The translations under genes and the position numbers were made by a program. A DNA stretch of 64,000 nt from Deroplatys truncata (lineage: Eukaryota; Arthropoda; Insecta; Mantodea; Mantidae). Positions 2,512-63,804 of this stretch are shown here, one piece after another. The DNA is taken from NCBI GenBank assembly GCA_030765065.1, contig CM060978.1:216833498-216897497 (forward strand), in the 5' to 3' direction. Under the pieces are notes generated by a model. The model searched no databases and was not told where the DNA came from. It saw only the letters and a list, made by a program, of their open reading frames with translations. Numbering within the stretch: the first letter of the stretch is position 1; each line of letters starts with the position of its first letter.

Positions 2512-3350
2512 TCCGACGTAGTACATTCACATGACTTTCACTACCCTCTATCTTTTAGTGGATATACAAACTATTCCTGCTAAAGCTTGTTTTTCGATCT
2601 ACTGTATTTTAATCCAAATAAGCCTTTGCAGAAATAGCTACATTACATGTTTCGTTATACATACAAAGGGAACAGCGATAGTCAAATGTTTAATAACCGG
2701 ACGCCATATGCCGGCCTTAAATTCCACAGCTTCCATGTAATCGCGAGAAACAAGTTGACAGAACTTTGAGAGAATGACCAAGTAATGAACAACTCGAACC
2801 ATTAATAACGGATATCTCAGAAATGGCTTATGCCACAAAAAATCTTAAGGAAATAAATTGTGTGTTTAAAAGATAACTACATTTTTTGTGCAGTAAGTTT
2901 TCGTCTATCGCTTAACGTTTTGCAAGATTATACAAAATTCCTTCGGAATGAGAAAGACTTCAGAGAAGATTTAAGAGATGCATTTTATTTGGCATGTAAA
3001 TATCTTTAATGTGTGTTATTTTAATCAAAATAATCAGAGACATTTTTAGTATTCCAAAATTTTCGAAATACATTCCATCTAAAGGGTAGTTGGAGTGGAT
3101 TTTCTTGAAAATCTTTGTGTCACATCCTTGGAAGATACTGAGCTTGAATACCAAGTTTGGTATTATCCGAGTTTTCGTTCTTGAGTTATGCTGTTCACAG
3201 ACACATTGACACATACACAGATCTTTTCCTAAAAATACATTTTTCGTTTTAAGGGCCTCAAAACGTGCATTTCCGGTGAAATTTCGGTATCGGATTTTTG
3301 GGTGGATTGCAATATCTTCTGTACCTAATATGTACATGGTAGAGAAACTA
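2512..3350 (+). mobile_element. HINE-like element, old full-length copy
   Basis: Both ends are recognisable despite divergence. The start is TCCGACGTAGTACATTCAC with an ACTTTCACTAC box, and the end is a hairpin region followed by GGTAGAGAAACTA. The conserved middle (GTTATGCTGTTCACAGACAC, near 3188) and the block TTTTGGGTGG near the end are present. The CA tract has decayed to a few imperfect units. The short ORFs inside are by-products of the repeat. Confidence 0.75.
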
Positions 3351-3693
3351 AAAAGTTAGTGCTGCTGGAATGCGTAATTTTACGGAGAATATTGACACCA
3401 TTTTTGTTTCCGGAAAAATATTTTCTCACTAAAACGTTGCATATGAAATATTACAGTTACGACATATGAAGTTTGATGATCAGTCTAGGGCGTATAATTC
3501 GTAGAACAAAATCAGCGGCTCGAGCCCAAAGAAGTTCAACTGTTTTGTGTTTTAAAAACATACAAATAAAAGTATTATTATTATTATTATTAATTATACT
3601 TTTCTCATCAAATATGGCAAGTTATTACGCTTTTACCAACTTAAACAATTTAGTATGCCGTAAGTAGGTAAATCTTTACTTTGGTCCAATTTT
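3351..3693. other. unassigned spacer
   Basis: AT-rich DNA between two HINE-like copies, with a short TTA run near 3572-3595. Nothing else was recognised. Confidence 0.4.
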
Positions 3694-3822
3694 TACTTTC
3701 TCTACTACGTATAGTAAGTATGGGAAGTATTGCATTTCACCCAAAAATTCGATACCGAGATTTCACCGGAAATACATGTTTTGAGACCTCCTGAATCCAA
3801 AAAAAGCATTTTTAGAAACATG

Positions 3823-3857
<35 letters not shown>

Positions 3858-4546
3858 GTGAACACCATAACTCAAAAACTAACAGTCGGATAAACACCAA
3901 ACTTGGTATTTACGTTCAGTATCTTTCAGAGATGCGACACGAAGATTTTCAAGAAAATCCCCCCACCCCAGACTACCCTTTACATGGAACATTTTTCGAA
4001 AATTTTAATTTTCTCAAAAATGGCTCTAACGATTTTGATGAAAATATCATATGTGTAAGATAATGTCATGAGAAATGAAATGTATATCTCGAAATTTCTG
4101 GGAATGTCTCCAAAAGTATTCTTCATTATGAACGACTTTTGCATAACTGGTAAACCATAAGAGATAGACAAAATTTTACTACACAAAAAATGTAGATCGC
4201 GTTAAAATACACAACTTGTATCATATACATTTTTTTGTTGAGTGAACCGTTTTCGAGATATTTGTTATTTCCTTAAATTTTCCAATACTTTACTTTTTCT
4301 CAAATTCGTTATTCATTTTTTTATGTCCTGGACATACAAAGAGAATGGAATGCGCCACATAGCAACCAGCGATAAAATATTTGACTATCGCTTAAAAGCT
4401 AACATATTCCCCTTGCATCTACAAGCAAATTACAAATAAGATTGACATCTCGATATCTCGATTAATATGAAGCATATGGAGAATAGGCGTTTGTAAAAAT
4501 AGATTGTACAAGAGTAGAGAAAGTCATGTGACTGTAACACATCAGA
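3694..4546 (-). mobile_element. HINE-like element, subfamily A, full length
   Basis: Read on the plus strand, the copy opens with TACTTTCTCTACTACG and the palindromic hairpin. It runs through a (GT)n tract at about 3826-3855 and ends AGTAGAGAAAGTCATG...ACATCAGA followed by a T-run. Both the terminal box and the subterminal inverse box are intact. The head is the short type. Confidence 0.88.
3826..3855. repeat. (GT)n microsatellite inside a HINE-like copy
   Basis: A nearly pure GT run. It sits at the same internal position as the CA/GT tracts of the other copies, between GAAACATGTCCG and the conserved CTGTGAACAGCATAACTC-like block. Confidence 0.9.
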
Positions 4547-4913
4547 TTTTTTCTTAAATTATCCACCTATTTGTACAAATACCACAACGTTATATCAGTT
4601 CAGTATGTTTACAATCAGTATAATGTTTCGAAATTCGATACAATAAACATATTCTAGAAGCCACAAAATCACCATTTCCATTCCTCTTGTGAAAGCTTCA
4701 TCTTAATACGTTTATAATGGATGTCGTATATTACAGTTTGTTGATTTTAGCTACTTTCTGCTGTTTGTTTTCAGGTTTGGTTTTTAGACTTGGGACTTAT
4801 GAGAGCTCAAGTGGCGGCTATAGTTCATGGCCTCCTTGAATAATTTCTACCATTATATTTACTACGCATAGTATAAACCCAAAATGCCATTCCCAGGAAG
4901 GGAAACGAAAAAA
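4547..4913. other. unassigned spacer
   Basis: AT-rich spacer between two HINE-like copies. No coding or structural signal was recognised. Confidence 0.4.
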
Positions 4914-5665
4914 TCTTGTGTTGCAATCACATAACTTTCTCTAGTCATTCTTCTATAAAGTATTCTTACAAACACTTGTTCTTCTATTTACATCTTGTTA
5001 ATACATATAAACCTCCGTTACTCATTTGCATATTTCGCCAAAGTATAAGAAGTATACAGTAAGGTAAAGCGACTGTCAAATCTTCTCAAAGTTAGTCGCT
5101 ATTGTTGGCTTTGAAATTCTGTTGTCTTTGCATGAACACGAAAAACAAAGAAATAATAATAACAAAAAGAATGCATTTGGGAGAAGTATAAATATGGGAA
5201 AATTCAAACCAATAACAAAGAATATCTCGCAAATGATTAACGCCCAAGAAAAGAAAATCAACATAAATTGAGTGCCTTAAGAGGTCTATACTTTTATGTG
5301 TACAAAAGTCATTCATAATGAAGAGGACTTCACAGGCTATTCCTATAAAATTCATGATGTACAGTTTGTTAGGCATGCAAATATCTTAAACATATAGTAT
5401 TTTAATCAAAATCGTTGAAGCCATTTTGTATAAAATAAAAAATAACCCATTTTTTCCATGTTAACGGTAGTTTGGAGTGGGGACTTTTCTTGAAAACCTT
5501 CGTTATTAAACTGTCTTTTCGTTTGAAATTATGTTATTAACAGCAGACACACACACACTTCATGGAGTCTGAAAACGTGTATTTCTGATGCAATCCCGTC
5601 GGTATCGAATTTTTTGGTGGAATGCAATACCTACTTCCTCTACTTAGTAAGCAGTAGAGAAAATA
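4914..5665 (+). mobile_element. HINE-like element, diverged full-length copy
   Basis: It begins TCTTGTGTTGCAATCACATA with an intact ACTTTCTCTA box and ends with a hairpin at 5640-5657 (stem CTACT/AGTAG) followed by AGAGAAAATA. A short CA tract lies near 5545. Internal blocks match the consensus, but indels shorten the copy to about 0.75 kb. Confidence 0.78.
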
Positions 5666-5800
5666 AAAATTGTACCTTGACTAAGTATCCCGTTCCTGAC
5701 TCCATTAACATTGTAATACTAATATTTTACATTCCCATTCTGGTAACCGTTCCCGATTGTTGTGAGCCAGCCTTAGTCAACAGCGGTTTGCAGTTATTTA

Positions 5801-7027
5801 CACTACGTGATCAAAAGTGTCCGGACACCTGGCTGAAAATGACGTATAAGTTCGTGGCGCCCTCCATCGGTAATGCTGGAAGTCAATATGGTGTTGACCC
5901 ACCCTTTAGCCTTGATGACAGCGTTCACTCTCGCAGGCATACTTTCAATCGGGTGCTGGAAGGTTTCTTGGGGAATGGCAGCCCATTCTTCACGGAGTGC
6001 GGAACTGAGGAGAGGTACCGATGTAGTTCGGTGAGGCCTGGCACGAAGTCGGCGTTCCAAAATATCCCAAAGGTGTTCTATAGGATTCAAGTCAGGACTC
6101 TGTGCAGGCCAGTACATTACAGGGATGTTATTGTCGTGTAACCACTCCAGCACAGGTGCTCGATCGTGTTGAAAGATGCAATCGCCATCCCCGAATTGCT
6201 CTTCAACAGTGGGAAGCAAGAAGGTGCTTAAAATATCAATGTAGGTCTGCGCTGTGATCGTGCCACGAAAACAACAAGGGGTACAAGCCCCCTCCAGGAA
6301 AAACACGACCACACCATAACACCACCACCTCCGAATTTCACTGTTGGCAGTACACACGCTGGCAGATGACGTTCACCAGGCATTCGCCATACCCACACCC
6401 TGCCATCGGATCGCCACATTGTGTGCTGTGATTCACCACTCCACACAACGTTTTGCCACTGTTGAATTGTGCAATGTTAACGCTCCTTACACCAAGCGAG
6501 GCGTCGTTTGGCATTTTCCTTCGTGATGTTAGGCTTATGAGCAGCCGCTCGACCATGGAATCTAAAGTTTCTCACCTCACACCTAACTGTTATAGTACTT
6601 GGAGTAGATCCTGATGCAGTTTGGAATTCCTATGCGATGGTCTGGATAGATATCTTCGTAATACTCTTTACGACCCTCTTCAAATGTGGAGGTCTTTGTC
6701 AGTCAGCAGACGAGGTCAGCCTGTACGCTTTTGTGCTGTACATATCCCTTCACGTTTCCACTTCACTATCACATCAGAAACAGTGGGCCTAGGGATGTTT
6801 AGGAGTGTGGAAATCTCACTACAGACTTCTGACACAAGTGACACCCAATCACCTGACCAGGTTCGAAGTCCGTGAGTTCCACGGAGCGTCCCATGCTGCT
6901 GTTTCACGATGTCTAATGACCACTGAGGTCGCGGATAATGAGTACCAGACAGTAGGTGGCAGCACAATGCACCTAAGATGAAAAACTATGTTTGTGGGGG
7001 TGTCCGCATACTTTAGATCACATAGTG
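5801..7027 (-). mobile_element. Tc1-like DNA transposon, copy 1 (full length)
   Basis: The ends are inverted repeats: CACTACGTGATCAAAAGTG at 5801 and the inverse, with substitutions, ending at 7027. Both are flanked by TA (5799-5800 and 7028-7029), the duplicated target of Tc1/mariner elements. The length of 1227 bp is normal for a minimal Tc1-like element. A related copy, missing one end, lies at 31831-32968. Confidence 0.93.
5890..6894 (-). pseudogene. Tc1-like DD34E transposase, broken
   Basis: Cut-and-paste transposase of the Tc1 family. The start MGRSVELTDF matches copy 2. A helix-turn-helix region (LNIPRPTVSDVIVKWKREG) is followed by the catalytic motifs WSGES (the aspartate is lost; copy 2 keeps WSDES), IFQHDRAPV and PDLNPIEHLW, the last with its glutamate. 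Compared with copy 2, a short deletion after the second aspartate (HDRAPV runs directly into LEWLHD) removes the HTARAVA segment and shortens the D-E spacing. Frameshifts split the gene into at least four frames, and the C-terminus has shifted frame. Not expected to be active. Confidence 0.92.
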
Positions 7028-7028
7028 T

Positions 7029-7232: not shown

Positions 7233-7266
7233 ATTTTTTCAAGTGGGAAGTCGGTATTCGTTTTTT

Positions 7267-7772
7267 TACTTTTTTTACTACTTACCAAAAAGTCGATACA
7301 GAGATTTCACCGGAAATACACACTTTGATGCTTCCTGAAAAGCAATAGATAAAGGTGTGTGTCTCTGTGTTTGTGTATTTTACAATTTCCACTATAATTG
7401 GAAAACGAAAAGTAAGTTAAATATCAAACTTGGTATTCAAGTTTAGGACTTTCCAAGAATGCGAGACAAGGAATTTCTAGAAAATGCCACCTCAACTACC
7501 CTTTACAGAAAAATGTTTCGTTATTTGTTTATTTCCTCAAAACGCCTCTAATGATTTTAATTAAAATATCACATTTTTAAGATATTTTCATGAAAAATTA
7601 TATGCATAACTATGTTGAATGTGCTGGGAATAGCGTGTGAAGTCCTCTTCAACATTTGAAATAATTGATGCGCCGTAAGAGATAGAAAACTCTTACGACA
7701 CAAAACTGTAGATCTCGTTAAAGCACACAGTTTGTGGCATTAATCCTAGTTATTGGTCGGAATCTTCAATTA
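7267..7772 (-). mobile_element. HINE-like element, truncated old copy
   Basis: Recognisable blocks appear in order: TTTCACCGGAAATACA, a degenerate GTGTGTGTCT tract, ACTTGGTATTCAAGTT, CTACCCTTTACA, AAAATATCACAT and GTAAGAGATAGA. The outer 5' end is missing and is replaced by a second short fragment at 7786. Confidence 0.7.
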
Positions 7773-7785
7773 CTTATAATTCTTC

Positions 7786-7912
7786 TACTTACCTATAGTA
7801 AAAAGTGGAAGTATTGTATTCAACCGAAAAATTAGACGCCGACATTTCACTGGAAATACACATTGTGAGACTCCCTGAATAAAATAAAAATAATTTTTTA
7901 GAAACACTAATA
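7786..7912 (-). mobile_element. HINE-like 3'-end fragment
   Basis: About 125 bp matching the terminal part of the family (plus-strand reading: TCTACTTACCTATAGTA, then GGAAGTATTGTATTC, TTTCACTGGAAATACA, GACTCCCTGAAT). The match stops abruptly. Confidence 0.6.
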
Positions 7913-10088: not shown

Positions 10089-10090
10089 TA

Positions 10091-12129
10091 GTTCTTAACC
10101 TTCTTGGCTATTGCATCATGAAGCTTATATTTTTCAGTTTAAATAGAAAGAATTTTCTTTAAATTTTATACAAGCTGTTTGGCTCATACCTCCGAATTTC
10201 TAATTCACTACCTGCGTTCAAGATAATAACTCCGACAGAGCGCTTAGATAACACATGCAACCCTAGTGAAAAGGTTCATGGTTTTAACAGTTTATTGTCC
10301 AGTTACTATAGTAATTAAACAAAGGACAAGCCAAACCAATTAGTTATCCTCTACATAAGGATAGCAGAGTTAGCTCCAACAGTTTGATAATCTGAAGGTA
10401 CAAACACCCGATTTGGGATTCATTTTCTTGTTTCTGTTTGATTTAAGGAAGAGAGAGCTAAAAGGAATGATAAATTGGTACATTTGGACCAACACTGGGA
10501 CTTAGAAAGCAGTGTGTTGGTGGGAAAGGTTCGGTGACCCGGGATTTAAATAATCCTTAACAAACTAAGGAATCCTTACACTAGTTTTCTATTTCTGATA
10601 AATGCGATTTACGATTTAGGTAGGTAGGCTGTGAACGCATTTTGAGAGGCCCCCACAGCTTGTCACTTTCATTCCGGGCCCACCAAAGGTGAAAGGCGAA
10701 TGGAAATATGCACTAATTCAGGCGCCGGTCAGCCATAAATTAGATCAGATCTTTGTTAGAGGACACGTAGATATAGGAAACATGTTTGTGATCCGTGGGC
10801 GCATACCAAGGAATTCCAAAACATACAACTTCCGCATTGGTTTCCTATTAATTTTTCATTTACTTATTTTCTCCTCTTAATCCCATATGCTACCTTTTCC
10901 TGTTTCTATACAAGCGCTAGGCAAGCTGTGGAGAAACCTCTAAACTGTAGGTGAGACCAGCGTATCCAGGGGCACGTTTTATAACTTGCATAACGCCTAC
11001 AATTTGAAAGGAATGTACAAACAAGTTATTGATATAAAGTGCACTCTTAGGAGAATAACTTCACTGGCTGTTTATAATTTTAACTCACACTGCATTATAG
11101 AAACCTCTGCCAATGGCCCTGGGTAAAACGCAACCTTTAAGCTAGATGATTTATACTTAGGATTTACTTATTAAATGTGTTTTTTCATAGATGTGAATAA
11201 TTCAGTTATGCATTTATAGTGTATCACAAACAAAATCAATACTTTAGCTTTAATGTTCAACATTATAAGTAGCAAAACCTACACAAAATGGCAAACGAAA
11301 ACGTCATTGAGCAGATCCTCCAACCGAAATACATAGATGATGGAATCTTCTTAACAAATATTACTTCGGAATGTATTAAATAATCTCTATAGTTTATTTT
11401 GTTCCACAGTGTAAGGAAATGTACTAGTTTCCAAATTAAAAGCAGTGCGAAAATAGAAATGTACAATTCACAAGCCATATGCCAAGCTAATGCTTTACCA
11501 ACTTACGCACAAAAAGTTTTATCACAAAAATATTTCAATTTGGAGTGGGATAATACCTCATAATAATGTCAAATATGAATACTAGAATAATATTTATTAA
11601 ATACCACGACACTCGCAAGCACTTTGGGTTTTTTTTAACATTGTTCATGGAAAAAATCTGATATGATATGTGCGCACGACTTTCCCTACCAATAGGAAAT
11701 TCACATAATATATCTAATATATGTTGTATTTATATAAAAAGTTATTCTTCTACTCACGCTACCTTACTCGGGATTATATATGCTTAGGAATTATTTAAAA
11801 TTAGACAAGACGGGCTTAGTTACACATGCGGAAACAGTATTCAGATGTTTATGCGTGGTAACAAGCTCTCTGATTGGAAAGAAAAAAAGGGGAATGAAAA
11901 GTTAACAATCGCAAACGTTAAATCGTGTCAGTTAGATGGCGAACAGGATGGAATATTTCCAAAATGGTTTACACTACGAAAGGTTTATATTACACAAATT
12001 TTGTATGTAAATGATCCCGACCTTTTTCCTGCAGTAAGGTTTCCTTGTAATTCAAAATATACAAAACAAATCAAATAAAAGGGGCTTCACGCCTTCCCAG
12101 AAGATGCAAGATGTAAATTTTATCTATAA
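10091..12129. other. unassigned 2-kb stretch
   Basis: AT-rich DNA with no recognisable protein, repeat family or inverted-repeat pair. Small ORFs (for example 10689-10880 and 11263-11478) have no familiar motif. Confidence 0.4.
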
Positions 12130-12427
12130 TTCAGGTAGCTTAAACATATACAGCTTTTTTTGAGAAAATCAAAAGTAACGAAGATTGTTCCATGTAAAAG
12201 CAGTTTGTTGTCAGGGGATTTTCTGTAAAATCTTCATGTGGAATTCTTGGAAGATTCTGAAATGAAATACTCAGTTTGATATTAAACACACATTTTGTTT
12301 TCGATTTATGTTGTTAACAGATAGAGATGTTTCTCTAAAAATGTTTTTTTTTTTAATTTAGGGAATCTCAAGACGTGCATTTACGAAGTTTTGGCTTACT
12401 ATAGGTAAGCGGTAGAGAAGTTAAAAA
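12130..12427 (+). mobile_element. HINE-like element, 3' third only
   Basis: Matches the family from TTGTTCCATGTAAAAG through TTTATGTTGTTAACAGAT to the 3' end GGTAGAGAAG. The microsatellite is reduced to almost nothing. Instead of the usual stem, the hairpin here is CTTAC/GTAAG at 12395-12409, so pairing is kept with different bases. Confidence 0.65.
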
Positions 12428-12780: not shown

Positions 12781-12862
12781 ACTGATGAAATACTGAATAC
12801 TGTTTATATTATAGCAAAAAATGCTGCCTCTAAGTATACAGTTAATACAGTATACAAAAAAA

Positions 12863-13095
12863 TCTGATGTGTTACACTCACATGACTTTCTCTACTCTTG
12901 TACATATTATTTTTACAAACGCTTATTCTCCATATGCTTCATGTTAATCGAGATATCGAGATGTTAATCTTATTGCAAATTTTCTTGTCGATGCAAAGGC
13001 AATATGGTAGGTTTTAAGCGATAGTCAAATCCTTTAAGCGCTGGTTGCTATGTGGCACATGCCATTCTCTTTGCATGTCCAGGACATAAAAAAAT
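12863..13095 (+). mobile_element. HINE-like 5' end (short-head type) abutting another copy
   Basis: It starts TCTGATGTGTTACACTC with the ACTTTCTCTACTC box, follows the short head (ATGCTTCATGTTAATCGAG, TAAGCGATAGTC, TGCATGTCCAGGACAT) and stops in an A-run. There a second copy starts with its own TCTGATGTG. The missing 3' part is not found after the second copy. Confidence 0.85.
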
Positions 13096-14054
13096 TCTGA
13101 TGTGTCACACTCACATGTCTTTCTCTACTCTTGTACAAACTATTTTTACAAACTCTTATTCCCCATCTATTTCATATTAATCCAGATAAACATTTGCAGA
13201 AACGATCTTTTGACATGCAAAGAGAATTACATTTTACACATAGCGACCAGTTCTAAAAATATTTGCTATCGCTTAAGGCGTACTAGGTTCACCTTGTTTT
13301 TTAATTACAAGGGCAATATAGAAATACAGTAGGATTTAAACCTAGACATAACTCTTAATAGCTGGTTGCTAGATGCAGCACCATTCTCTTTGCCACAGAT
13401 CAATACTCTTTGCATATCCAAGACAAAAAAATGAATAACGAATTCCCATTTGAGAAAAAAAGTATTGAAAAATTTAAGGGAATAACAAGCAATATCTCGA
13501 AAATGGTTCAGTCAACAACAAAAAATGTATATGACATAAATTGTGTATTTTAACGCGATCTACATTTTTTGTTAGTAAAATTTTGTCTATCTCTTATGGT
13601 ATACCAGTTATGCAAAAGTCGTTCACAATGAAGAATACATTTGGAGACGTTTCCAGAAAATTCGAGATATACACTTAATTTGTCATGAAAATATCTTAAA
13701 CATATGATATTTTAACCAAAATCGATAGAGCCATTTTTGAGAAAATTAATATGTTTGAAAAATGTCCCATGTAAAGGGTAATCTGGGGTGAGGGGATTTT
13801 CTTGAAAACCTTCGTGTCGCATCTCTGGAAGATACTGAACCTAAATACCAAGTTTGGTGTTTATCCGACGGTTCGTTTCTGAGTTATGCTGTTCACAGGC
13901 ACACACACAGACACACACATGGACATGTTTCCAAAAATGCTTTTTTTTTGGATTCAGGGGGTCTCAAAACATGTATTTCCGGTGAAATCTCGGTGTCGAT
14001 TTTTTGGGTGGAATACAATACTTCCCCTACTTACTATGCGTAGTAGACAAAGTA
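13096..14054 (+). mobile_element. HINE-like element, long-head type, full length
   Basis: A complete copy of about 0.96 kb: TCTGATGTGTCACACTC start, subterminal ACTTTCTCTAC-like box (CTTTCTCTACTC), long head with two related modules, (CA)n near 13898-13918, and end hairpin followed by TAGTAGACAAAGTA. It shares the long head with 41587-42535, 24890-25822 and others. Confidence 0.9.
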
Positions 14055-15652
14055 ACTAGTTACAAAGGCGAATTGACTGTTAATAACACTGTAGCCAGCA
14101 TAAGAAACACTTAAATTTTCCAACACAACTTCAAATACAGTATGAATTTCCTCGATACGCTAATCTACCCTACATCTATGTTCAAATTTAGAGATATTTT
14201 TAATCCCTTAAGAAACCAAACCATACTTCCACACCTCCCCATTTCAGATAAAATTCTAAGGCAGCTACCAAGTATTCTCTAATGTTCAACTAACAACAAT
14301 AATCACAAATCTGCCAAGGCCAATGGTAAAGCTATTTAAGTCGATACGCATTTATAGGGGCAAAGCTGTTTGTTCATTGTCTCATGCGACAGGTATTTTA
14401 AGGATAGACAATTTTTGTTCCTTTTAAATTTAACGTCTTTTAACCGGGTAGGTCATATTGGACAAGAATGAATGAAATGGGCAAAATAATGTTCAAATAA
14501 GCTCAGAATTACCCAACATTCGTCTTCTCGCAACAAGAAAAAGCCCCGAGAAAATCTTATCTTTGTAACTCATCCTAACGAGATTCGACCTCTTGAATGT
14601 GAGACAGACCCACACCATGCGTATCGATTATTAATCTTTTCTGAATAAACTGATTCATTTTTATGTTAAAGTACCGATGTAAAAAAATTGATTTTTTTTT
14701 GTAAAACTCTAAAAAGTTCAATAAAATTTCGAATATTTTATTTTTAAAAAAAATAAACTATATGAGCAACTTTAACTAAAGCAACTCCACATGATTATGG
14801 GGTTGTTTTTACTATGTGCTCGAATTTTTATGTAGATCCACCTTGTAGTTTCAGAAAAAACGGATCATTTATGTTGAAAAATGTTATTTTGAGTAATCTC
14901 ACATTTAAAGTGGAAGTGTTTATAAAACTCGCTTAATCATAATATTTTTATAAATTAATTTATAATAGTAAATATTTGAATTTTGTTATGAACCAAACAC
15001 AAAATTACGCACAAAATATTTTCATAAATGCAAAAAAAAGTAATGTCTTTTAATTTTTGGCTTGACGACTCCCCTTAAAGTCCTTTATATGCATTTGTTG
15101 CTAAAGAAACTGAAATAAAGTTTTCATGTAAATAAACTGATTTTCTGAACAATACTGTGTTGCTGCTTGTATAATTGTTATATTTTCAGTTTGCCTGACT
15201 TGTACATTACCAACTACGTAGAATCTAAATAATTTTATATTTGGCGTTCCATCTGCCTGTCTAGAAATTCGCTTTAGAATTAGTTTAGTTTTTACAATCT
15301 TTTAGTGCACGGAACTCTTGAGACAACAAGACATCGGTGTGAAGGTAAACTATTGTTTAAATGTGGGAAGTATGCAGATTCATTTTCTGCTTCGTTGATG
15401 TGCGACAGCTTTCGTCATGTGCATGCATTCTCAATGTCACTGTCTAAATACTGCTTTTCTTTCTCTTTTCTGTTACGCAGGTGGCCCATTAAACAAGCAT
15501 TCAAAACAGCATAAAGCAAGAATAATGTTCTAGAATTTGACGCTATGCGGAGATCAATAAAGGGAACTCAGTTTAGTATGGTCTGCACCACGAAAATATT
15601 CAACAGCTATCGATGCAGATGGACTATACTTTTAGTAATACAGCATATCTTT
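14055..15652. other. unassigned 1.6-kb AT-rich stretch
   Basis: No protein or repeat family was recognised. Homopolymer A/T runs are frequent at 14680-15060. Confidence 0.4.
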
Positions 15653-15960
15653 GTTTTCTCTACCAGTACCTAGCAGGTAGAAAAGATACCGTATTCCATT
15701 CCAGAATTCGAAATCGAGATTTTACCATAAATATATATTTTGAGATTCCTTAATCCAAAAATAGCATTTCTAGAAAGGTCGTGTGTGTGTGTGTGTGTGT
15801 TTTCTGTGAACAGCATCACCCGAAAATGAAATGTCGGATAAATACCAAAATTGGCGTTTAAGTTCAGTATCTTCCAAAGACGCAACACGAAGATTTTCAA
15901 GAAAGTTCCGACATTCCAAACTATCCTTTAAATGGAGAATTTTTCTAAATATTCTATTTT
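15653..15960 (-). mobile_element. HINE-like element, subfamily B, 3' half (interrupted copy)
   Basis: The left part of an older copy. The plus-strand reading starts TTTTCTCTACC with a hairpin at 15660-15680 (stem CTACC/GGTAG), then a GT tract at 15781-15800. It breaks off in AATATTCTATTTT, where a younger copy begins. It resumes at 16796. Confidence 0.85.
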
Positions 15961-16789
15961 TACTTTCTCTACTACGTAGACGATAGGGGAAGTATTGTAT
16001 TCCACCCAAAAATTCGATACCGAAATTTCACCGGAAATATATGTTTTGAGACTCCCTGAATCCAAAAAAAACATTTTTGGAAACATGTCCGTGTGTGTGT
16101 CTGTGAACAGCATAACTCAGAAACGAACAGTCGGATAAACTTGGTATTTAGGTTCAGTATCTTCCAGAGATGCGACACGAAGGTTTTGAAGAAAATTTCC
16201 CCACCCCAGATTACCCTTTACACGGAACATTTTTCGATAATTTTAATTTTCTCAGAAATTGCTCTAAAGATTTTGATTAAAATATCATATATTTAAGATA
16301 CTTTCATGACAAATAAAATGTATATCTTGAAAATTCTGGGAATGTCTCCAAAAATGTTCTTCATTGTGAACGACTTTTGCATAACTGTTAAACCATAAGA
16401 GATTGACAAAATTTTACTACACAAAAAATGTAGAACGCGTTAAAATACACAATTTATGTAATATACATTTTTTTTATTGAGTGAACCATTTTCGAAATAT
16501 TGCTTGTTATTCGCTTAAATTTTCCAATACTTATACTTTTTCTTTAATGGGAATTCATTATTCCTTTTTTTTTATGTCCTGGACATGCAAAGAGATTGGG
16601 ATGCGCCACATAGCAACCAGCTCTTAAAATATTTGACTATCGCTTAAAGCCTACCAATTCCCCTTGCATCGACAAGAAAATTAGCAATAAGATTAACATC
16701 TCGATTAACTTGAAGAATATGGAGAATAAGCGTTTGTAAAAATAGTTTGTACAAGAGTAGAGAAAGTCATGTGAGTGTAACACATCAGA
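15961..16789 (-). mobile_element. HINE-like element, subfamily A, nested inside another copy
   Basis: A complete young copy: TACTTTCTCTACTACG start and ACATCAGA end on the plus-strand reading, with a short GT tract near 16090. It interrupts the older copy of 15653-17355 within a T-run, so both boundaries are defined by the flanking family sequence. Confidence 0.92.
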
Positions 16790-16795
16790 TTTTTT

Positions 16796-17355
16796 CAAAA
16801 TGACTCTAACATTTAAATTAAATTGCCATGTGTTTAAGATACATATATGCAACTAAAATGTACATCAAGAGTTTCTGGGAATAGCCTATGAAGTCCTCTT
16901 CATTCCGAAGGAATTTTGTTTAATTTTGTATAATTGGGAAACCGTAAGAGATAGACAATGGCGTACTATACAAACAATTTAGATCTTTTTGAAACACAAT
17001 TTATTTCAAATATCATTGTTTGTGCATCAGTCATTTCCGAGATATCCGTTGATATGGGTTCGACTTTTCAGTATTTGGCAATCTTTAAAGTGTTGTAGCT
17101 CAGCTCAGTTCAGTTGTTTCTCGTGATGTTGGAGAGTGGAATTTCTAGGCTATCATATAGCGACCCGGATAAACATCTGACTATCGATTCGGTTTCCTCT
17201 ATTCTTCATTGTACCTTCAACGAAATATGTAATGAAACTATTTCTGCAAAGGATTATCTCGATTAACATGAAGCAGGTAGATAGAAATATAAGCTTTCGT
17301 AAGAATATTTTGTAGAACCTACAGGGGTAGTAGGTAGAGAAAGTAACACGTCAGA
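16796..17355 (-). mobile_element. HINE-like element, subfamily B, 5' half (continuation)
   Basis: Continues the interrupted copy from AAAATGACTCTAAC, the block that follows TTTTCT in intact copies, to the end GTAGAGAAAGTAACACGTCAGA. It carries the subfamily-B head (TACCTTCAACGAAATATG, AATGAAACTATTTCTGC). Confidence 0.85.
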
Positions 17356-17772
17356 TTTTATCTCATACACTCCGCATATTTTCACAGGTTTTCCGGCTAT
17401 CCAGATCAATATGAATACTTCGTAAATGTTTTACTGCCATTTACGTTCGGCATGTTATCAGATTTTATAATTCCCAAGTAAAAGTCTTGAAATAAATGGG
17501 TAAAACTTTGTCACCGCAAGATTTCAAGTAAAACGCCAGTTATTTGTTCTGCCATAATTAAATAGGTCAAACTCTAAACTAGAAAAGCTGTATTAGGGTA
17601 GACAATATTGATCTTGAACAGAAAATTAATATTAGGTATTTTTAAACATTCCAAATCGGTTTTATTATTTTGAGCCAGTGCAGGAAATAACTTGAAAGTC
17701 AAATGAGGGAAGAATAATTCACAAAACCATAATAGCCTGATATTGGGATATTGTCCTGGTCAGTCAACCCGC

Positions 17773-19335: not shown

Positions 19336-19914
19336 AGTAAGTAGAAATATTGCATTCCACCCCAAAAGAATTGATCTCGATATTTTACTGAAAGTAGATA
19401 CATGAATCCAAAAAAGCACTTTTAACAAAATGGGTGGATGTGTACGCGTGTGTGTGTTTTCTGTGTCTGTGAACTGCATAATTCAAAAACGAAATGTCCT
19501 ATAAATATTAAACTGCGCATTTAAGTTCATATCTTCCAAAAATGCAACCTAAAGATTCTCGAGAGAATCCCCCCCTCGCCAAACTACACTTTACATGGAA
19601 AATGTCACAACACAAATAATGTAGATCTCTTTAAAGAAGAACTTCTTTCCAATAACTTTTTTGTGGCATCAGCCATTTCCGAGATATTCGCTATTATTGA
19701 TTTAAATTTCAATACTTACGCCATTTGAGTGTTGCTTCAATCTCCTGTATCACTTTGTACTGACAGTAAAATGTGTAATGAAACTATTTCGTTAAACGTT
19801 TTTCTCGATCAACATGAAGTAAATATAAAATAAGCTTTTGTAACATTATTTTGTAGAAGATATACAGACAAATTATAGTGACTAGACAAAGTCACGTGAA
19901 TGTAACATATCAGA
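19336..19914 (-). mobile_element. HINE-like element, subfamily B, internally deleted
   Basis: Blocks GTAAGTAGAAATATTGCATTCC, GT tract near 19450, AACTACACTTTACATGGAAAATG, then a deletion directly to GTAGATCTCTTTAAAG, and the B-type head to ACATATCAGA. The 3' tip with its hairpin is mostly missing. Confidence 0.8.
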
Positions 19915-19918
19915 TTTT

Positions 19919-41580: not shown

Positions 41581-41586
41581 AAAAAA

Positions 41587-46640: not shown

Positions 46641-48144
46641 TTCACTCCCTTAGGAAGCATGCTAGGCATTTCAATATCGTGCCTTCTAAGAAACTTCCGG
46701 AAACGACACCTGCAAGACTTGGATTATGGAGCTGTTCCTGTAATATTCGTTCAGCACGGTGTGGAAAAAGGAAGCGAGATTTGGATGTACAGGCGTAAGC
46801 CCACAGCCATATTTCCTAACAGACATCACGCCGATATTGCAGTCGGCGTAAAGATCATAACTGGGTTAGTTGGAAAAACACCGACAGCCATTCAGATGCC
46901 CCGATTATGGACTGTGTCTGATCTCAGCACAGATGGCCGTGCTGAAGAATATACCGTACACCCATAATCTAACTTGGATCGGATCAGTGCGCGATGCTGA
47001 CGCAGCAAACCTATCCGATCCGCACCTCAAGATTTCCACTTAATGCCCGCAAGATATTCTGAGCACGGTCACGTCGCGTCTTCAGAAGAACTATATGCTA
47101 TGACCAGCTAAGCTTTCTATCAAAAGTCAACCCCAGGAATTTCGTCTCATCTGCGAATCTGACCGAATCGGAGCAAAGATGGTAATCATCTCCTACGCCA
47201 GAATTTACACAGATGGACTTCTCAATTGAGAAACGAAATCAGTTTTTAGAACTCACTTCTATAAGTTTGTATTATAAACATAACTGCATACGACATTCCA
47301 AAAACGGCGTACGCTGAGAAGTACAAAACACGGCAAAGTCGTCGAATAAGCATGACAATACTCCTGGAGGAACACATTACGTGATCTAATTAATCACTAT
47401 AGTAAACAGTGTAACCCATAGAGGCACTCCGTTCTCCTGAACATAAGGACTGGAAAAAAACGAGCTGACCGTTACTCGGAAAATACTATCTTTCATTAGC
47501 TCCTGAATGAACAGTGGTAAGCTCCACGTATGTTCTAGGTATGTAGGGAACGTAGTATCTCTGCACGCCAGCACATATCATAAGCCTTCTCGAAGTCAAA
47601 AATATCCCAACGGTTTGACAATTCTTCATGAATGTGTTCATGATCTGCGTTGATAATGATATAAGGTGGTCCACAGTTGAACGGCGTTGTCGAAAACCGC
47701 ACTGAGTGTCGGTCAGTAGGTTGTGAGTTTTTAGCCACATACCAACCGTCCACTGATCATGCGTCCCATCACCCTTCAAATGCAACTTCTGAGGGAAATA
47801 GGAGACGGTAGCTGGACGGCAGATGGCGGTGCTTTCTGTCTTTCAAGGTGAGTATAACGGTGGCCTCTCGCCACATTTTCGGGAAAGTAACGTCAAAACA
47901 AACACGATTATCGACTTCGAGCAGGAAAGACTTACCTTCAGGAGAGAGCCGTTGCAACATTCATACATGGATACCATCTGGTACTGATAGTCGCGAAGAT
48001 GAAAGAGGATTTTCTACCTCCGTCATGGTGAAAAGGTGATAGTAATCTTCAACGTTTCCAGAACGAAATGAGAAACCCTGAAATTCCACATAAGTTTTAA
48101 CTGGAAGGAATTCGGTCGAATAGTTATCTGAGCTAGACACTTGA

Positions 48145-48530
48145 GCGAAAGCACTGCCAAATATATTGGCACGTCAAATGATCAACAACAGCTCCTGCAG
48201 CTGTTTTAAGACCGGCGATAGGCAGGTAGGTAGCGTTTCCGGCCATACGGCTTAACTTATCCCATACAACAAAGGAAGCGGTATGTAAATTAAATGAAGC
48301 TACAAAATTGTTCTTGTGTATTCTTGCTATCCTAGCGAAAGCACTGCAAAATATATTGGCCACGTCAAGTGGATTAACAACAGCTTCCGCAGCTGTTTTA
48401 TGAACGGCGAAAGGCAGATAGGTAGCGTTTCCGGCTATACGATTTAACTTATGCCATACGACAAAGGAAGGCGTATGTAGATTAAATGAAATTACAAATT
48501 TGCTTCGTTGTGTATTTTTGCTATCCTTAA
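48145..48530. repeat. tandem duplication of about 190 bp within ORF2
   Basis: Two diverged copies start GCGAAAGCACTGC at 48145 and 48335 and end TTGCTATCCT. On the minus strand both encode the same block (NATYLP, LDVANIF-like, FARIA). Allowing for small deletions in the left copy, the original unit was near 192 bp, so the open frame is kept across both copies. Confidence 0.88.
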
Positions 48531-49223
48531 TAGCGTGCCAAGACTTGGCAGGCATTTTCTTGTACTGGATCAGGTTATCCAGTGTAGGGCGACGCTGGAA
48601 AACCCTGAGAGCACGCCCGCGAGCACGAATGGTCTATCGATATTTATCCGTCCACCAAGGGATCGGAAATCAACAGGGTTGGGCAGTCCACCGAGGAATA
48701 GATTGTTCAGCAGCAGAAATAATCATCTCTGTGAAATGTACGGGTAAAGCATTCACAGAGTTCTTTGTAATTAAACACAACCACCTTGGAGTAAAAGTTC
48801 CAGTTGGCTTGATCTTTGCGCCGACTAGGCAAACGTGTGGACTAATAAGACATGGAAAGTTGTCACTAGAGTGTAAATCGGAGATTACAGTCCATTATAA
48901 GGAAACTGCCATCTGTAGAGAACAAACTGCTAAATCAAGATGTGAAAAACTATTGAAGGAGTAGGGCCGGTTTTACAGTTCAGGCCTAAGTCGAACCTTT
49001 ACTAAGCTACGGACGCAGCTTAAACAAAACTTAAGCTTTGGTTAAAGCTTTGCGAGTTTCACAGTAGGGCAACCACGTTTGGCTTTACTGAGCTGAACAA
49101 CTCCTCGAAACTTTAAAGTTGGTAACGCTTGCGCATGCGCATCGAGCGAATTCCCATCATTTGTTTATGGCGACGCTGTCCTGAAAGTAAGGTTTTATAG
49201 GTTATTCAGATACACACATTAAA

Positions 49224-49760
49224 ATGACCAAAAAATCAGAGCCAAAACGTACTGCTAACTTCACTTCTCAAGAAGTTAGCATTCTGTTAGAAATTGTAAA
49301 GCAGTATAAACACATAATAGAGTGCAAGCAATCTGATAAGGTACTGTGGAGCAGGAAGAACCAAACGTGGGGGAAAATTGCGGAGTTATTCAATGCAAAG
49401 AGCGGAATAATATACAGAGATGCTACCGTGTTGAAGAAGAAATATGACAATTTGAAGAAAGTTACAAAAAAGAAATACGCCGAAGAGAAATGTGCTATTC
49501 GGGGTAAAGATGGAGGTCCAGCTGTGCAATCGTTAATTACGCCAATCGACGAGGAAATAAAGGAATTAATTGGTGTCCAAATTGATGGATATGAAACAAT
49601 TTTCACAACCCTGCATGCTGTAGATGAGACGCCGGAAAAATCTCCATCTGCAATTAGCATGCTTCCACTTGCATATAACCTCAACATCAAAAGAAGCATC
49701 GTTTCTGACGAGAAGGTTTTGTTCCTGAAATATAAAGTAATAATACCTTATGAGCAATAA
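49224..49760 (+). CDS. Myb/SANT-like DNA-binding protein of Harbinger
   Basis: An uninterrupted 178-codon frame, the only apparently intact gene here. Residues 8-100 fit the Myb/SANT-like domain found in Harbinger accessory proteins and NAIF1-type genes: NFTSQEVSILLEIVKQYK, IIECKQSDKVLW, W at the core positions (KNQTWGKIAELFNA), then LKKKYDNLKK and a lysine-rich stretch. A C-terminal region of about 75 residues has no known motif. In this superfamily the protein binds transposon ends and helps the transposase enter the nucleus. The start at 49224 follows about 260 bp of leader inside the element, and AATAAA overlaps the stop region (49756-49761). A GT at about 49714 could be a donor, in which case the last 15 residues are intronic read-through. 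Confidence 0.85.
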   Translation: MTKKSEPKRTANFTSQEVSILLEIVKQYKHIIECKQSDKVLWSRKNQTWGKIAELFNAKSGIIYRDATVLKKKYDNLKKVTKKKYAEEKCAIRGKDGGPAVQSLITPIDEEIKELIGVQIDGYETIFTTLHAVDETPEKSPSAISMLPLAYNLNIKRSIVSDEKVLFLKYKVIIPYEQ

Positions 49761-53800: not shown

Positions 53801-55393
53801 GCATTCTTATTCGTACACTTCAATTTTCTAAGAAAATACCTTAATATTTGTTAGAAGACACAGTCAAATTGATATTTTTTTTCCATATATGTTGAACAGT
53901 ATAACACGTGCTGTTTCAGGAATTAACTAAATATTAACTTATGAACTTACAAACTAAATTAAATAAAATTGTAAAAGAAACATGACCATATTTGTACTTT
54001 TCTATTCGTACATTAGAAATAATAGTTTAATAACAAATACACCACTGATCATCTAATATTTTGTTGGGTTACCTTTGGCTTAATAACTGCCTCACACCTT
54101 CTCTTCATAGAAGTAACCAAGGTTTTGCATTCTTCTAGGCTAATTTTATTCCATTCTTCTTCCACAACACATTTAAGCTCTTGTTTAGACTTTACTCTAC
54201 TTTTACGGATTCGTTTCTTCAGAATTGTCCACAGATGCTCGATTGGATTCAAGTTTGGTCTCTGAGAAGGTGTTTGTAGTAGTGTGGGTACATTCCATAT
54301 CAACCAATTCATGTTCAGTCTTGCCTTGTGTTTAATGTCATTATCCTGCTGAAACCTATAACCAGATGCCATGTCCATTTTCTCGGCACTCTGCTTTACA
54401 TTGTTCTTTAAAATGCCAAAATGCAGATATTTCTCCATAGTGCCATCAAAAATTGTATATTACCAACACCGTTGGATGACACGCAGGCCTAGAGCATAAT
54501 GGAATCACCATCATGCTTAACTGTGGGAAGAGTGTCTCTGTAGTCATTGTGTAAATTTGCTTTTCTCCAGACTCTGTTTATCCCATCTGACCCGAAGTCA
54601 ATCTTATCTCGTCTGACCGTATCACGCTGTCCCAAACGTTCTGATCCTTATGAATGTGATCTTTAGCAAATGCAACACGTTTCTTCCTGTTTGCTGCAAT
54701 TACATAAGGCTTCTTCCTTGGTGTTCGGCCATGGTACCCATACTTCCATAAGACACGACGAACTCTTTGGTCAGATATCTTCTTTCCAGACACATTTTCT
54801 ACTAATGGTCGTAACTGAGGAACACTTAATTTTGGATTTTCTCGGATTTGGCTTACAATGTAACGTTCCTCTCGTACATTCGGCCTACTTTCTTTAGGTT
54901 TTTTTGGTAAATTCTTTGTAGAACTTGCTCCATAAATTTTTTCACTACATACCGAATGGTAGAATGCGTTTATTTACTGTCTCTCCTATTTTTCTGAGAG
55001 AATGCCCGCTAAGTGCCAAGCTTATAATTATTTGCTTCAGATCAGAACTAAGCTCCTTTTGCTCACCCATTTCGATCGCTACTGACAGAACGTATACAAC
55101 TGCGACCGCAGTAGCCTAAGCGACCTTTGAAACATGTGCATGTTGAAGCTGTTTACGACGCAGTGGTCATTCTTAACAACTGTTCGAATAGGAAAGTTGT
55201 ATAACATTGGGGGCTACTTCTTTAACATTGCTGTTTCATGCAATGGTGTAAGTTCTAAAATGCAGTTTTTCATTGGAATTTGTTTGAATTAGATTCATCA
55301 AGCACGTATAAACGACTCACAGAAAAACACAAGTTCTTAAGCAAGAAGAGCATGACTTTTTATTGAAACCCTGATATGTACGAATAAGAATGT
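53801..55393 (-). mobile_element. Tc1-like transposon with IR/DR ends
   Basis: TA flanks at 53799-53800 and 55394-55395. The outer repeats are GCATTCTTATTCGTACAC at 53801 and its inverse ending at 55393. A second pair, CTATTCGTACA near 54002 and TGTTCGAATAGG at 55181, lies about 200 bp inside. Two direct repeats within each long inverted repeat is the IR/DR layout of Sleeping-Beauty-like Tc1 elements. The size of 1593 bp also fits. Confidence 0.92.
54049..55070 (-). pseudogene. Tc1-like DD34E transposase, broken
   Basis: Start MGEQKELSSDLKQIIISLAL with a paired-like helix-turn-helix (LSGHSLRKIGETVNK). Next come ISDQRVRRVLWKYGYHGRTPRKKPYV, a DE pair in SDEIRLT (first Asp), FQQDNDIKHKARLN (second Asp), and RPNLNPIEHLWTILKKR (Glu; 34 residues after the second Asp). 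The C-terminus is RRCEAVIKPK. Length near 340 residues is standard. Stops after the helix-turn-helix and frameshifts at about 54440-54580 inactivate it. Confidence 0.92.
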
Positions 55394-55395
55394 TA

Positions 55396-58508: not shown

Positions 58509-58513
58509 AATAC

Positions 58514-60803: not shown

Positions 60804-62708
60804 AATGAACAATAAAACTAAAAAGCAGAGATACTTTGAGAAGCTAAAAACAGATCCAGAATGACTAGCAGCATACCGTGAAAAGCAAAAACAAAGACAG
60901 AGAAGTTCCAGGAGCAAAGACAGAGAACAATTTAAGGATAGGCCATGTTTACAGAAAACAAAAAACCAAGAAACTTTGAGAAAACGCATATACAGACAGA
61001 AAAAGAAATTAATGGTAAATGAACCCACTCATACCTCAAACGCAACTCCAGAACTCGGTTCCTACAGACGACCTCAAAGCTTGAGAGAAGCTGTAATTCG
61101 GCTAAAAAAAATAGTAAAATGCTTCCTAACAGTCCTACAAAAAATATTGCTGTTGTTAAGAAACTAATACACAGTATCCCAGAATTTTCAAATGCTCTCA
61201 AGAAGGAAAAACAGAAAAGAAAACTGAAGCTTTCTGTTGAAGTTAGGGAAAAGGTTGTGCACTTCTTTTGTAGAAGAGACATCAGCAATTTTTAACAGAG
61301 ATAATGTACATCGTATAAAGAAAAGCACATTTTATGAACTGCACTTCAGAAAAGTTTTATTGGTTTCAGATATATCACATGGGTATGTGTGTGTAATTTA
61401 CCAATTCAAATTTTGATTTCTTGCTAGAGCCTTTGCAGAATAATGGAATAACAGGAACTGACTTTTGTAGTTTGTAGCATCAGAAATGAAAAGTGTATGT
61501 TAGTCTTTTGTACAAAGTGCAAAGATGCTAACATTAAACAGATTTTAGTTCCTGGGGTAGGTTATGACCCTCACCAAAAATTAAACTGGAAAAAATAGGT
61601 TGAAGTTGAGAAGCGAGCAAAACAGGTTGAGATGAATGCATGAGTTTCAGAGGTAATTCATGAAATTAAAAATCAACTACCAAAGTTCATGCTTCACTAC
61701 TATGTCAAGAATACTCAGTCCAAAGCTTTTGAATTAAGGAAAGAGAGTAGACCTAAATCAGGTGTTGTGCAAATTGATTTTGCAGAGTATTATTCACTTG
61801 TTTCCCGGATGAAATCTAAAGTGCACACTGGTGACATGGATAAGTTATATTATTTACAGCATGTGCTTGGGTGGGTGGAAGTAAATGTTCATATGCAATT
61901 GTTAGTGATCTCTCATATGGAAAATTACCTGTTAGGGTTTTCCTGTATAGACTCCTTACAGACTTGCAAAATAAGCTTCCTGATCTAACAAACCGGTCCA
62001 TTTTCTCTAATGGAGCTTCATCACAATTTAAGAACAAGTTTTTCCCTTTTTCTCTTGTGTTCAATGAAAAAATACTTTTAGATTCATGTAAAATGGTTAT
62101 TTTTTGCTAAATCACGTGGGAAAGGAGCAGTAGATGTAATTGATGGGGACTTTAAAGGGCAGGGTGCGGAATGCAGTGAAATCCAGAAAACAACAAATAG
62201 ATGATACATATCAGTTTTATCAATGTGCTAAAGAAGAGATCAAAAGGACAACAGTTTATTACATTCCCAAAGTAGAAATGTTAGCATATGAAGACTTCAT
62301 GAACAAGGAATGGGAGAAAGTGACTGCTATTCCTACGTTTTACTACTTTTTACATATGACACAGAAAGCATTCTTGTTGCCACGACTGCAACATCTGAAA
62401 CTAGACATGGCATATTTAAGAAACCAACTGCTCCAAAACAAAATCCACATATGATGAGGCATATTTGAATCATCAGACTGTGTTAAGTGGCCCAAGATCA
62501 GATTTTGAGGAAAATAACTGTTTGAATATATGTGACAAGTCACAGTTAAGTCAGCTTATGAATCTGGAGGGTTTAAGTCGTGGAAAATTCATAGAAGTTG
62601 AACTGACAAGTGATAAGGAGTTGAAACATAAATACTATGCTATTAATGATAGTAATCTTGGAAATGAAGGCATTACAGTTCTCTTTTTAAAGAAGACAGC
62701 AAAAAAAT
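60804..62708 (+). pseudogene. uncharacterised multicopy arthropod protein, decayed
   Basis: A chain of plus-strand frames belongs to one gene. It has a basic N-terminus (MNNKTKKQRYFEKLKTDPE; then AAYREKQKQRQRSSRSKDREQ; RKRIYRQKKKLMVNEP) and PELGSYRRPQSLREAV. VRLVV-like helices with SVEVREKVVHFFCRRDIS follow near 61235-61290, then ELRKESRPKSGVVQIDFAEYYSLVS at 61732-61806, IFSNGASSQFKNKF near 61996 and GKGAVDVID near 62118. A C-terminal KKTVV-like block is degraded. I recall near-identical proteins as uncharacterised, repeated genes in aphids and other arthropods. The D-rich FSDGA..QFKN and HGKGA.D motifs look like an RNase H/transposase fold; that is inference. Stops at about 60863, 61162 and many later ones. 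Confidence 0.7.
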
Positions 62709-63379
62709 GACAGATTCTTCAAACTAGATGAAGAGTCCTTATCATTGTCAAAGTGAATTAGATCATAAGAATTTTGGACGATCCTGATATAGTCCGAAAA
62801 GGAACTGATAGACTTTATTATAAGTTTGTTTACAGATTAAGCCAAAATAAAATTGCACTTTAATATATATGTAAACAAATATTAGAATTTTTGTGTTACA
62901 CGCGTTTATATGTTTTGTTGTAAAATTTGTTTCTAACTATATATTATTATGACAAAAAATGAAAATAATATGGGATGAAATACTTTTTTTTTTCATTTTA
63001 AACCTATAATACTTACTTTCAAAATCATAATCTTCAAATGAAAGCTTTTTACTCACACATATCCAGTAAAGAACCATAATTTTTTTATTATTTAGTAGTA
63101 TTTAAAATGTGCGTTTAGTTAGTAACTACCTTTCTAAAATGGTTCAATGCTTAAAAATTTGTGGTAAAAATTTCAGGTACTTATACAGAAGATATGTCGT
63201 AGACTTTTGCCATTAAAGCTTTTGATTCCAATTGCGGTGTCCAAATAATGCCCCATTTTGGTGAGACACTACTCAAAGAGTGCAGTACAAAATACCAATT
63301 CTGTTTGCAGGGATATGTTTCCTCATGCCTTAACAATCATTCATTCATCATTGAACTTTTAGTATTACAGATAAGAAGT
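62709..63379. other. unassigned AT-rich spacer
   Basis: No recognised gene. It may include the 3' flank of the preceding pseudogene's element, but no repeat end was found. Confidence 0.4.
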
Positions 63380-63804
63380 TTATAACTATTGTATTTTCTA
63401 AGTTGCTCTGTAAAAGTCTGGTACAGAACTGGAATGGCTGTATACTCTTTGAATGATGCCATGAGAAACAAAACAATCCCAGAAAGCTCATGATATGCAT
63501 TTTGCTTGTAATCTGAATATCCTTAATATATGGTATTTTAATCAAAATTATTAGAGCATTCTTCAGAAAATAAATGGAAAAATGTTCCATGTAAAGGGTA
63601 GTTTGGGTGAGAAGATGGAGATCTTGAAAGTTTGGTATTTATCCTACTTTTTGTTTTTGAGTTATGCTGTTCACAGATACACCCATGAATCTTTTCTTAA
63701 AATGCTATTTTTTTATTCAGGGGCCTCAGATATTTTTCTGGTGATATCTCTGTATCAAAATTTTTAGTGGAATGTAATATCTTCTCTACCTATTGGTACG
63801 TGGT
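63380..63804 (+). mobile_element. HINE-like element, old 3' half
   Basis: From TTTTAATCAAAATTATTAG (63537) the match is good: TGTTCCATGTAAAGGGTAG, GAGTTATGCTGTTCACAG, GGGGCCTCAGAT, then the hairpin at 63786-63806 (stem CTACC/GGTAG). The terminal AGAGAAAGTA has turned into a GA run. Sequence left of 63537 matches only weakly. Confidence 0.7.

Follow-up and report, generated by a model that had tools for sequence, protein, structure and literature searches.

A probable HINE family with a Helentron relative makes up about a fifth of sampled Deroplatys truncata DNA and little of its largest sequence

We analysed a 64,000-nucleotide stretch of the mantis Deroplatys truncata (the window; C4:216833498-216897497, contig CM060978.1 of GCA_030765065.1, an assembly of 4.29 Gb in 818 contigs, 16 of which are large sequences) in which one repeat family had been predicted, from the letters alone, to be a non-autonomous Helentron, or HINE, spread by rolling-circle transposition. 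This original prediction is supported by the ends of the element, a partner gene, the flanks and two natural empty sites: the family is very probably a HINE, non-coding and copied by rolling-circle transposition through the Rep, helicase and endonuclease functions of a Helentron with the same ends. In blind samples of the genome, the family makes up about 20% of the assembly and about 5% of C16.

Nine near-complete copies of 839-969 bp lie in the window, with pairwise identities of 84-93% (median 89%; BLAST and alignment). Copies and fragments together masked 13,581 of the 64,000 bases (21.2%) in 21 merged segments between 2509 and 63812, compared with 0 bp in three crude two-base-block shuffles and 218 bp in the reversed window. 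When simple repeats were masked and only matches of at least 50 bp were counted, the family accounted for 12,641 bp of the window and for none of the reversed window. The end tags were also far more frequent than expected from shuffling, with TCTGATGTGTTACACTC at 12 places with up to three mismatches (0.26 expected) and ACTTTCTCTAC at 28 places with up to one mismatch (1.5 expected). Thus, an abundant family does fill about a fifth of the window, as had been claimed. The further claim of at least 20 copies or fragments needs correction as a count of separate elements, since some are nested and others joined head-to-tail. Like other HINEs, the near-complete copies have no coding capacity. Copies are overlapped by two stop-to-stop frames, of 131 aa (2960-3355) and 133 aa (19809-20210), and the list of frames held no counterpart at the matching place in other copies, a family search not having been made.

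Read from its 5' end, the element consists of a T-run, ACTTTCTCTAC, 12 bp, the inverted repeat GTAGGGGAAGT, a GT microsatellite, a core, GTAGAGAAAGT, the palindrome ATGTG/CACAT, CAGA and a second T-run. Published HINEs have a subterminal inverted repeat (subTIR), an inverted repeat and a microsatellite on the left and a subTIR and a palindrome on the right (PMC4067079, PMC7492417; here and below, comparisons are with portions of the cited papers). The orientation originally proposed was the reverse of this and was rejected because the autonomous Helentron reads the opposite way: a Helentron on C4 terminates in GTAGAGAAAGTTATGTGAATGTAACACATCAGATTTT, the counterpart of the reverse complement of the supposed 5' end. 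What had been called the 5' end is therefore the true 3' end and vice versa, the supposed 3' hairpin is the 5' inverted repeat, and the true 3' palindrome sits in the former 5' end. With the ends swapped, the layout fits published HINEs better.

The two subTIRs, ACTTTCTCTAC and GTAGAGAAAGT, carry an 11-bp box at both ends, within the approximately 11-15 bp typical of HINEs. The 5' subTIR begins 5 bp from the 5' end, all five bases being T, and GTAGGGGAAGT follows 12 bp further in; in DINE-1 the 5' subTIR likewise lies near the 5' end, with an inverted repeat within 3-22 bp (PMC4067079). In single-strand folding the 5' inverted-repeat structure folded better than shuffled sequences (z = -2.3; 3 of 200 shuffles as good). 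At the other end, the palindrome has a 5-bp stem and is followed by CAGA and the T-run, within the HINE range of 5-10 bp at 8-35 bp from the 3' end.

Insertion sites were examined in 24 copies, comprising the nine in the window and 15 of 20 fetched from C1; the other five (L060, L063, L067, L068 and L073) had no clear 5' box in the fetched stretch, and the C1 copies, being picked by an exact 3' tag, are biased towards young ones. Of the five positions flanking the 5' end, each was T in 79-100% of copies, and of the five flanking the 3' end, each was T in 96-100%, against a background of 31%. Direct repeats of at least 4 bp with at least three non-T bases occurred near the ends of two of the 24 copies, compared with a mean of 1.6 when flanks were re-paired, which is no excess. 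T-rich targets and no duplication beyond chance are the outcome that the prediction called for. Two natural empty sites agree with this. At window positions 15655-17359 a young copy splits an old HINE at a T-run of the host, and the rejoined flanks align to the consensus with nothing duplicated. The second site, on C13, is a HINE interrupted within its ATTTTTGGAAACATG run. The insert starts with a HINE 5' end and finishes with a Helentron 3' end; the rejoined flanks align as one HINE across the break, the excess consisting of Ts only (one extra T in the alignment). The T-rich, unduplicated target of a HINE is thus seen in the 24 copies and backed by both empty sites.

The same 11-bp box inverted at both ends could also suit a miniature inverted-repeat transposable element (MITE), that is, a cut-and-paste DNA transposon shortened by deletion that bears terminal inverted repeats and makes a target duplication. 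T-runs at both ends could mask a short T-only duplication, and fragments of DDE transposases lie in the window. We nevertheless consider a MITE very improbable; the original prediction had judged it the less likely reading. As predicted, the inverted boxes are not equidistant from the ends (5 bp at one and 26 bp at the other), non-T duplications did not exceed chance, and the coding element found with these ends encodes Rep, helicase and endonuclease, although no exhaustive search for a DDE element bearing these ends was made. Neither symmetric ends nor a constant duplication was observed.

The autonomous element whose existence had been proposed was found in the same genome. A genome search with the Helitron_like_N profile gave at least 152 matches (150 of 291 candidates scored), many in open frames of more than 2,000 aa. 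On C4, a single open frame of 2,441 aa contains, above their cut-offs, Herpes_teg_N at the N-terminus (which we take to have an OTU-like cysteine protease fold), DUF6570, Helitron_like_N (PF14214) and PIF1 (PF05970), together with Exo_endo_phos_2 (PF14529) just under its curated cut-off (E = 1.2e-5; 25.6 v 27.4 bits). Its Rep motif, QMRGSPHEH, has S between G and P; at this place in Rep motif 2, S marks Helentrons and L marks Helitrons (PMC4067079). Judged from its predicted protein, the C4 element is of the Helentron type, with Rep, a PIF1 helicase and C-terminal endonuclease homology. Two further loci, L009 (C1:38116489) and L011 (C4:128870265), are Helitrons with the canonical Rep motif QKRGLPHAH and a stop inside the match, and the profile search also picked up decayed Rep matches on C16. 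Viral contigs were scanned once for a carrier of the Helentron, and no relative was found.

The Helentron 3' terminus was the same in all seven copies examined. The HINE consensus agrees with the C4 Helentron at 35 of 37 positions at the 3' end and has approximately 90% identity with its 5' region over approximately 660 bp, so that a gene for Rep, helicase and endonuclease lies in an element that shares the HINE 3' terminus and is homologous to the HINE on its 5' side. A partner encoding a DDE transposase or reverse transcriptase did not appear, nor did symmetric ends with consistent duplications, no exhaustive search having been made for other coding elements with these ends. These results also bear on whether the family might be a short interspersed nuclear element (SINE)-like or other retroposed repeat moved by a long interspersed nuclear element, as its asymmetric ends and the T-run at one end could suggest and as DINE-1 was once filed (PMC4067079). 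That both ends have a fixed structure with T-runs on both sides, that duplications do not exceed chance and that a Helentron shares the 3' terminus and a homologous 5' region all disfavour a retroposon, which we regard as extremely improbable.

A second genome search used 465 aa from the Helentron C-terminal region and gave at least 97 matches (91 of 460 candidates scored). At least 18 lay in frames of more than 2,000 aa and were 98-100% identical over the searched 465 aa, and nine of the 15 C1 HINE copies, picked by exact tag, were 96.9-98.6% identical to their own consensus. This near-identity of Helentron frames and of HINE copies suggests that the family has been active recently and perhaps still is.

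Helentron and HINE sequences also occur joined together. In all seven Helentron copies the 5' region is preceded by a HINE 5' half, joined at the HINE internal T-run, and in five (C4, C13, C9, C10 and C5) the fetched stretch extends as far as the 5' terminus of that half; in the C8 and C3 copies the outer end was not clearly visible, and their junction-table entries mark inner boxes. Where the outer end is visible, the preceding HINE half rules out the inner box at the Helentron 5' side as the present start of the moving unit. Past the Helentron 3' end, the HINE 3' part follows through to its 3' terminus in four copies (C10, C5, C8 and C3), and other sequence follows in three (C4, C9 and C13), which in C13 is the interior of a different, split HINE. 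The simplest history would be that one Helentron landed in a HINE and that the nest then moved with either of two 3' ends.

A second type of composite consists of a complete HINE followed by another 3' tail that starts from the T-run, as seen in the window (12856-14057) and at L060, L061 (a tail of 63 bp only), L070, L078 (a tail with an internal gap) and L079. Genome-wide, there were 12,218 pairs of exact 3' tags 196-226 bp apart and 8,590 exact HINE head-to-tail junctions, with none of either in the backward-read controls; exactly five Ts stood in 57 of 100 listed head-to-tail junctions (hand count). Bypass of the terminator is known for Helraiser (PMC4778049) and has been proposed for Helentrons (PMC4067079). 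Rolling-circle copying from one 5' end with a stop at any of several 3' ends is a good explanation of the composites, though not proof of such copying.

The double-3' and 5'-half chimeras might instead stem from ordinary nesting with later deletion, unequal crossing-over or tandem amplification, an origin that we hold to be unlikely yet worth serious consideration. Plain nesting is present at the empty site in the window, some tails stand in regular 222- or 232-bp tandem runs, some junctions lie in regular arrays, and a HINE-containing 3.4-kb array lies near the start of C1, so tandem amplification occurs too. Against such an origin, the switch points are the internal T-run or the 3' terminus. 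A host 5' half was also absent in the five double-3' cases with a checked left flank, including the window copy, where it is missing from the other side of the element; just 21 bp were available for L070, the flank of L079 holds an inverted piece of HINE, and L060 was outside the check. On C13, a stretch made up of a HINE 5' half and a Helentron interrupts another HINE, of which both halves are still there, as if the stretch had moved as a unit. The complete HINE to the left of this insert could have entered the boundary T-run at a later time.

HINE 3' tails stand head-to-tail at C1:24690177-24690889 and C1:29913975-29914657, at intervals of approximately 232 and 222 bp and each with a 3' terminus, possibly a satellite arising from the end of a transposon. 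Near one end of C1, whose first 1,500 positions (C1:1-1500) were all N in a telomere check, the 3' tag recurs in one orientation every 3,409 bp or so (C1:20528-122802; L001-L008). This is a tandem array with HINE sequence in its unit, 844 bp of HINE being matched in L001, the sole unit measured.

From the ends, the Helentron gene, the T-rich flanks, the empty sites and the composites, all of which were observed, we infer the steps of copying. The Helentron protein would nick at the 5' T-run and subTIR, one strand would be displaced and copied until the 3' subTIR and palindrome were recognised, and the product would enter another T-run. Missed or alternative stops would give the chimeras, with an extra 3' tail, a HINE 5' half before the Helentron, or head-to-tail pairs. 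As T-runs within HINEs and at their ends would also serve as targets, one copy would insert into another.

Several points weigh against identifying the family as a HINE copied in this way. In single-strand folding the 3' palindrome did no better than shuffled sequences (z of approximately 0.1). The 3' subTIR lies 26 bp from the 3' end including four Ts (approximately 27-30 bp with the usual T-run), compared with about 38-60 bp in the mite HINE families (PMC4067079), a spacing that may not be required of all HINEs. The HINE consensus and the C4 Helentron agree at only 42 of their last 60 positions, below the 80% that defines one subfamily (PMC4067079). The C4 Helentron is therefore a partner at the level of the family, and a closer partner may exist; by those rules, and for the one Helentron compared, the two sequences belong to the same family and to different subfamilies. 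A target duplication made of Ts alone could still lie hidden in the T-runs, and some of the chimeras could be due to nesting with later deletion or recombination. Rolling-circle copying by this family, itself not observed, is deduced from sequence.

We then estimated the share of the genome. Exact matches to the 17-base 3' tag number 177,542 in the assembly and those to the 20-base 5' tag 173,596, with none in the backward-read controls. Blind samples were taken at round-number positions, of 2 kb at first and 1 kb later. In the first 20 2-kb samples, two of them on C16, HINE sequence made up 21% (bootstrap 13-29%; 13 of 20 positive). It made up 23.5% (16-31%; 21 positive) of 38 samples outside C16 and 4.5% (0.7-9.8%; four positive, longest matches 67-86% identical) of 22 samples on C16 (L098-L119), which is the largest sequence (707 Mb, 16.5% of assembly length). 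What led us to single out C16 was that its first two samples were empty, together with the locations of the Helitron_like_N matches; when those two samples were excluded, later sets of 20 by 20 1-kb samples gave 24.4% elsewhere v 5.4% on C16 (P = 0.012, permutation test), an earlier test that included them having given P = 0.0008.

Young Helentrons were also missing from C16. The C-terminal Helentron matches merged into 84 loci, an incomplete set in which copies sharing a chromosome may not have arisen independently, and none of the 52 that were at least 94% identical lay on C16, whose share of the length predicts 8.6 (P = 9e-5); two of the 16 below 85% identity did. Five of 104 homeodomain matches were on C16, so it is not gene-free; this is below its length share, and about a dozen of the 104 form one tandem cluster on C6. 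Non-HINE sequence of C16 matched a small library of other sequence more than that of other chromosomes did (6.0% v 1.4%) and other blind samples less (2.2% v 9.0%), opposing results on whether the gap is specific to HINE. We think it somewhat more probable than otherwise that one still-expanding Helentron/HINE family forms about a fifth of a 4.3-Gb genome and has been largely kept off, or removed from, an entire chromosome-sized sequence of 707 Mb. If so, insertion or retention of rolling-circle elements would depend on a chromosome-wide property. The depletion on C16 offers an internal contrast for what governs where such elements land or survive.

From its size, C16 was suspected to be the X. 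The CaMKII association domain gene lies on C1 and the PurA gene on C13; since we take both to be markers of Drosophila Muller element F, the idea, which may yet hold, finds no support here. In titles and the openings of abstracts, with few subscription journals among them, neither such a family nor such a chromosome gap was described, and no report of Helitron depletion on a sex chromosome or of the Helitron content of katydids appeared. The kind of element is already known, as are chimeras and tandem copies among Helitrons. What is unusual is the share of a single family and the contrast of C16 with the rest, a chromosome-scale gap that is unexpected and unexplained.

The family resembles HINE-Mo of a mite and HINE-Cq of Culex (PMC4067079) in its subTIRs of at least 11 bp, 3' palindrome, T-rich and unmodified targets, and Helentron partner with Rep, PIF1 helicase and endonuclease that is apparently rarer than the HINE. 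It differs in a 3' subTIR nearer the 3' end, in a partner that is not a simple HINE parent (70% over the last 60 bp) and in a genome share far larger than the figures cited there. Its layout is that of Drosophila DINE-1/INE-1 (PMC4067079), with a 5' subTIR, an inverted repeat 12 bp on and a microsatellite near the 5' end, a 3' subTIR and stem-loop, insertion into TT or T-rich sites, and clustered copies; this likeness rests on layout, not sequence comparison, and the genome share is very different. Cg_HINE of the Pacific oyster (PMC7492417) has a similar left module (subTIR, inverted repeat, microsatellite) and right module (subTIR, palindrome), oligo-T insertion and element-linked tandem repeats. 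Here, the tandem unit, where present, is the element's own 3' tail and not a central repeat, and an autonomous element with the same termini was identified, which the oyster paper, in the portion consulted, could not do.

Helitrons constitute 6% of a bat genome and 6.62% of a Heliconius genome (PMC4067079) and 17-22% of assembled morabine grasshopper genomes (PMC7754599, PMC7486953). One family at about 20%, by blind sampling, exceeds the 6-7% all-Helitron shares of the first two and is comparable with the grasshopper total, which pools all Helitron families. HINEs are often described without their enzyme, whereas here a HINE and many near-identical, uninterrupted Helentron frames are in one genome, so that a natural rather than a reconstructed Helentron could be tested in cultured cells.

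Table 1. HINE copies, fragments and associated features in the window
Feature	Position	Strand	Basis
Near-complete copy; ACTTTCTCTAC end is 5'	3690-4552	+	BLAST, alignment, flanks
GT microsatellite inside copy 3690-4552	3826-3855	+	
Near-complete copy, inverted-duplication subfamily	13089-14057	-	BLAST, alignment, flanks
Extra 3' tail (HINE ~636-864) joined to 3' end of copy 13089-14057	12856-13088	-	
Near-complete copy nested in older copy	15958-16796	+	alignment, flanks
5' part (~7-323) of older host HINE	15655-15957	+	
3' part of older host HINE, resuming at ~319; natural empty site without duplication	16797-17359	+	
Near-complete copy, head-to-tail behind older copy	19916-20814	+	alignment, flanks
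Older copy; 3' end abuts 5' end of copy 19916-20814	19336-19915	+	
Near-complete copy	22085-22927	-	BLAST, alignment, flanks
Near-complete copy, inverted-duplication subfamily	24877-25830	+	BLAST, alignment
Near-complete copy, used as H34 reference	33912-34776	-	BLAST, alignment, flanks
Near-complete copy joined to older truncated copy	39292-40180	+	alignment, flanks
Older truncated, rearranged HINE adjoining copy 39292-40180	38699-39291	+	
Near-complete copy, inverted-duplication subfamily	41575-42538	-	BLAST, alignment
Old copy, identity ~74%	2509-3354	-	
Old copy, identity 75-76%	4907-5669	-	
Old fragment	7285-7906	+	
Old fragments	11939-12385	-	
Old copy, identity ~76-77%	37188-38044	+	
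Old fragment	63473-63812	-	

The three copies of the inverted-duplication subfamily carry an inverted duplication of approximately 145 bp in the 3' part, a potential long hairpin. Elsewhere in the window, remnants of Tc1/mariner-type DDE transposases (PF13358, PF01359 and PF01498) lie at 5803-6372, 27724-28134 and 54049-54973. An open frame of 189 aa at 49191-49760 contains a Myb/SANT-like DNA-binding domain (PF13873); domains of this kind often occur in transposons and in sequences derived from them. Two tandem 192-bp units, 87% alike, occupy 48144-48527 within one open frame (48133-48633, minus strand). Outside the window, homeodomain matches run along one strand at C10:114459401-126009188, over approximately 11.5 Mb; this is possibly a Hox cluster, which would then be very large.

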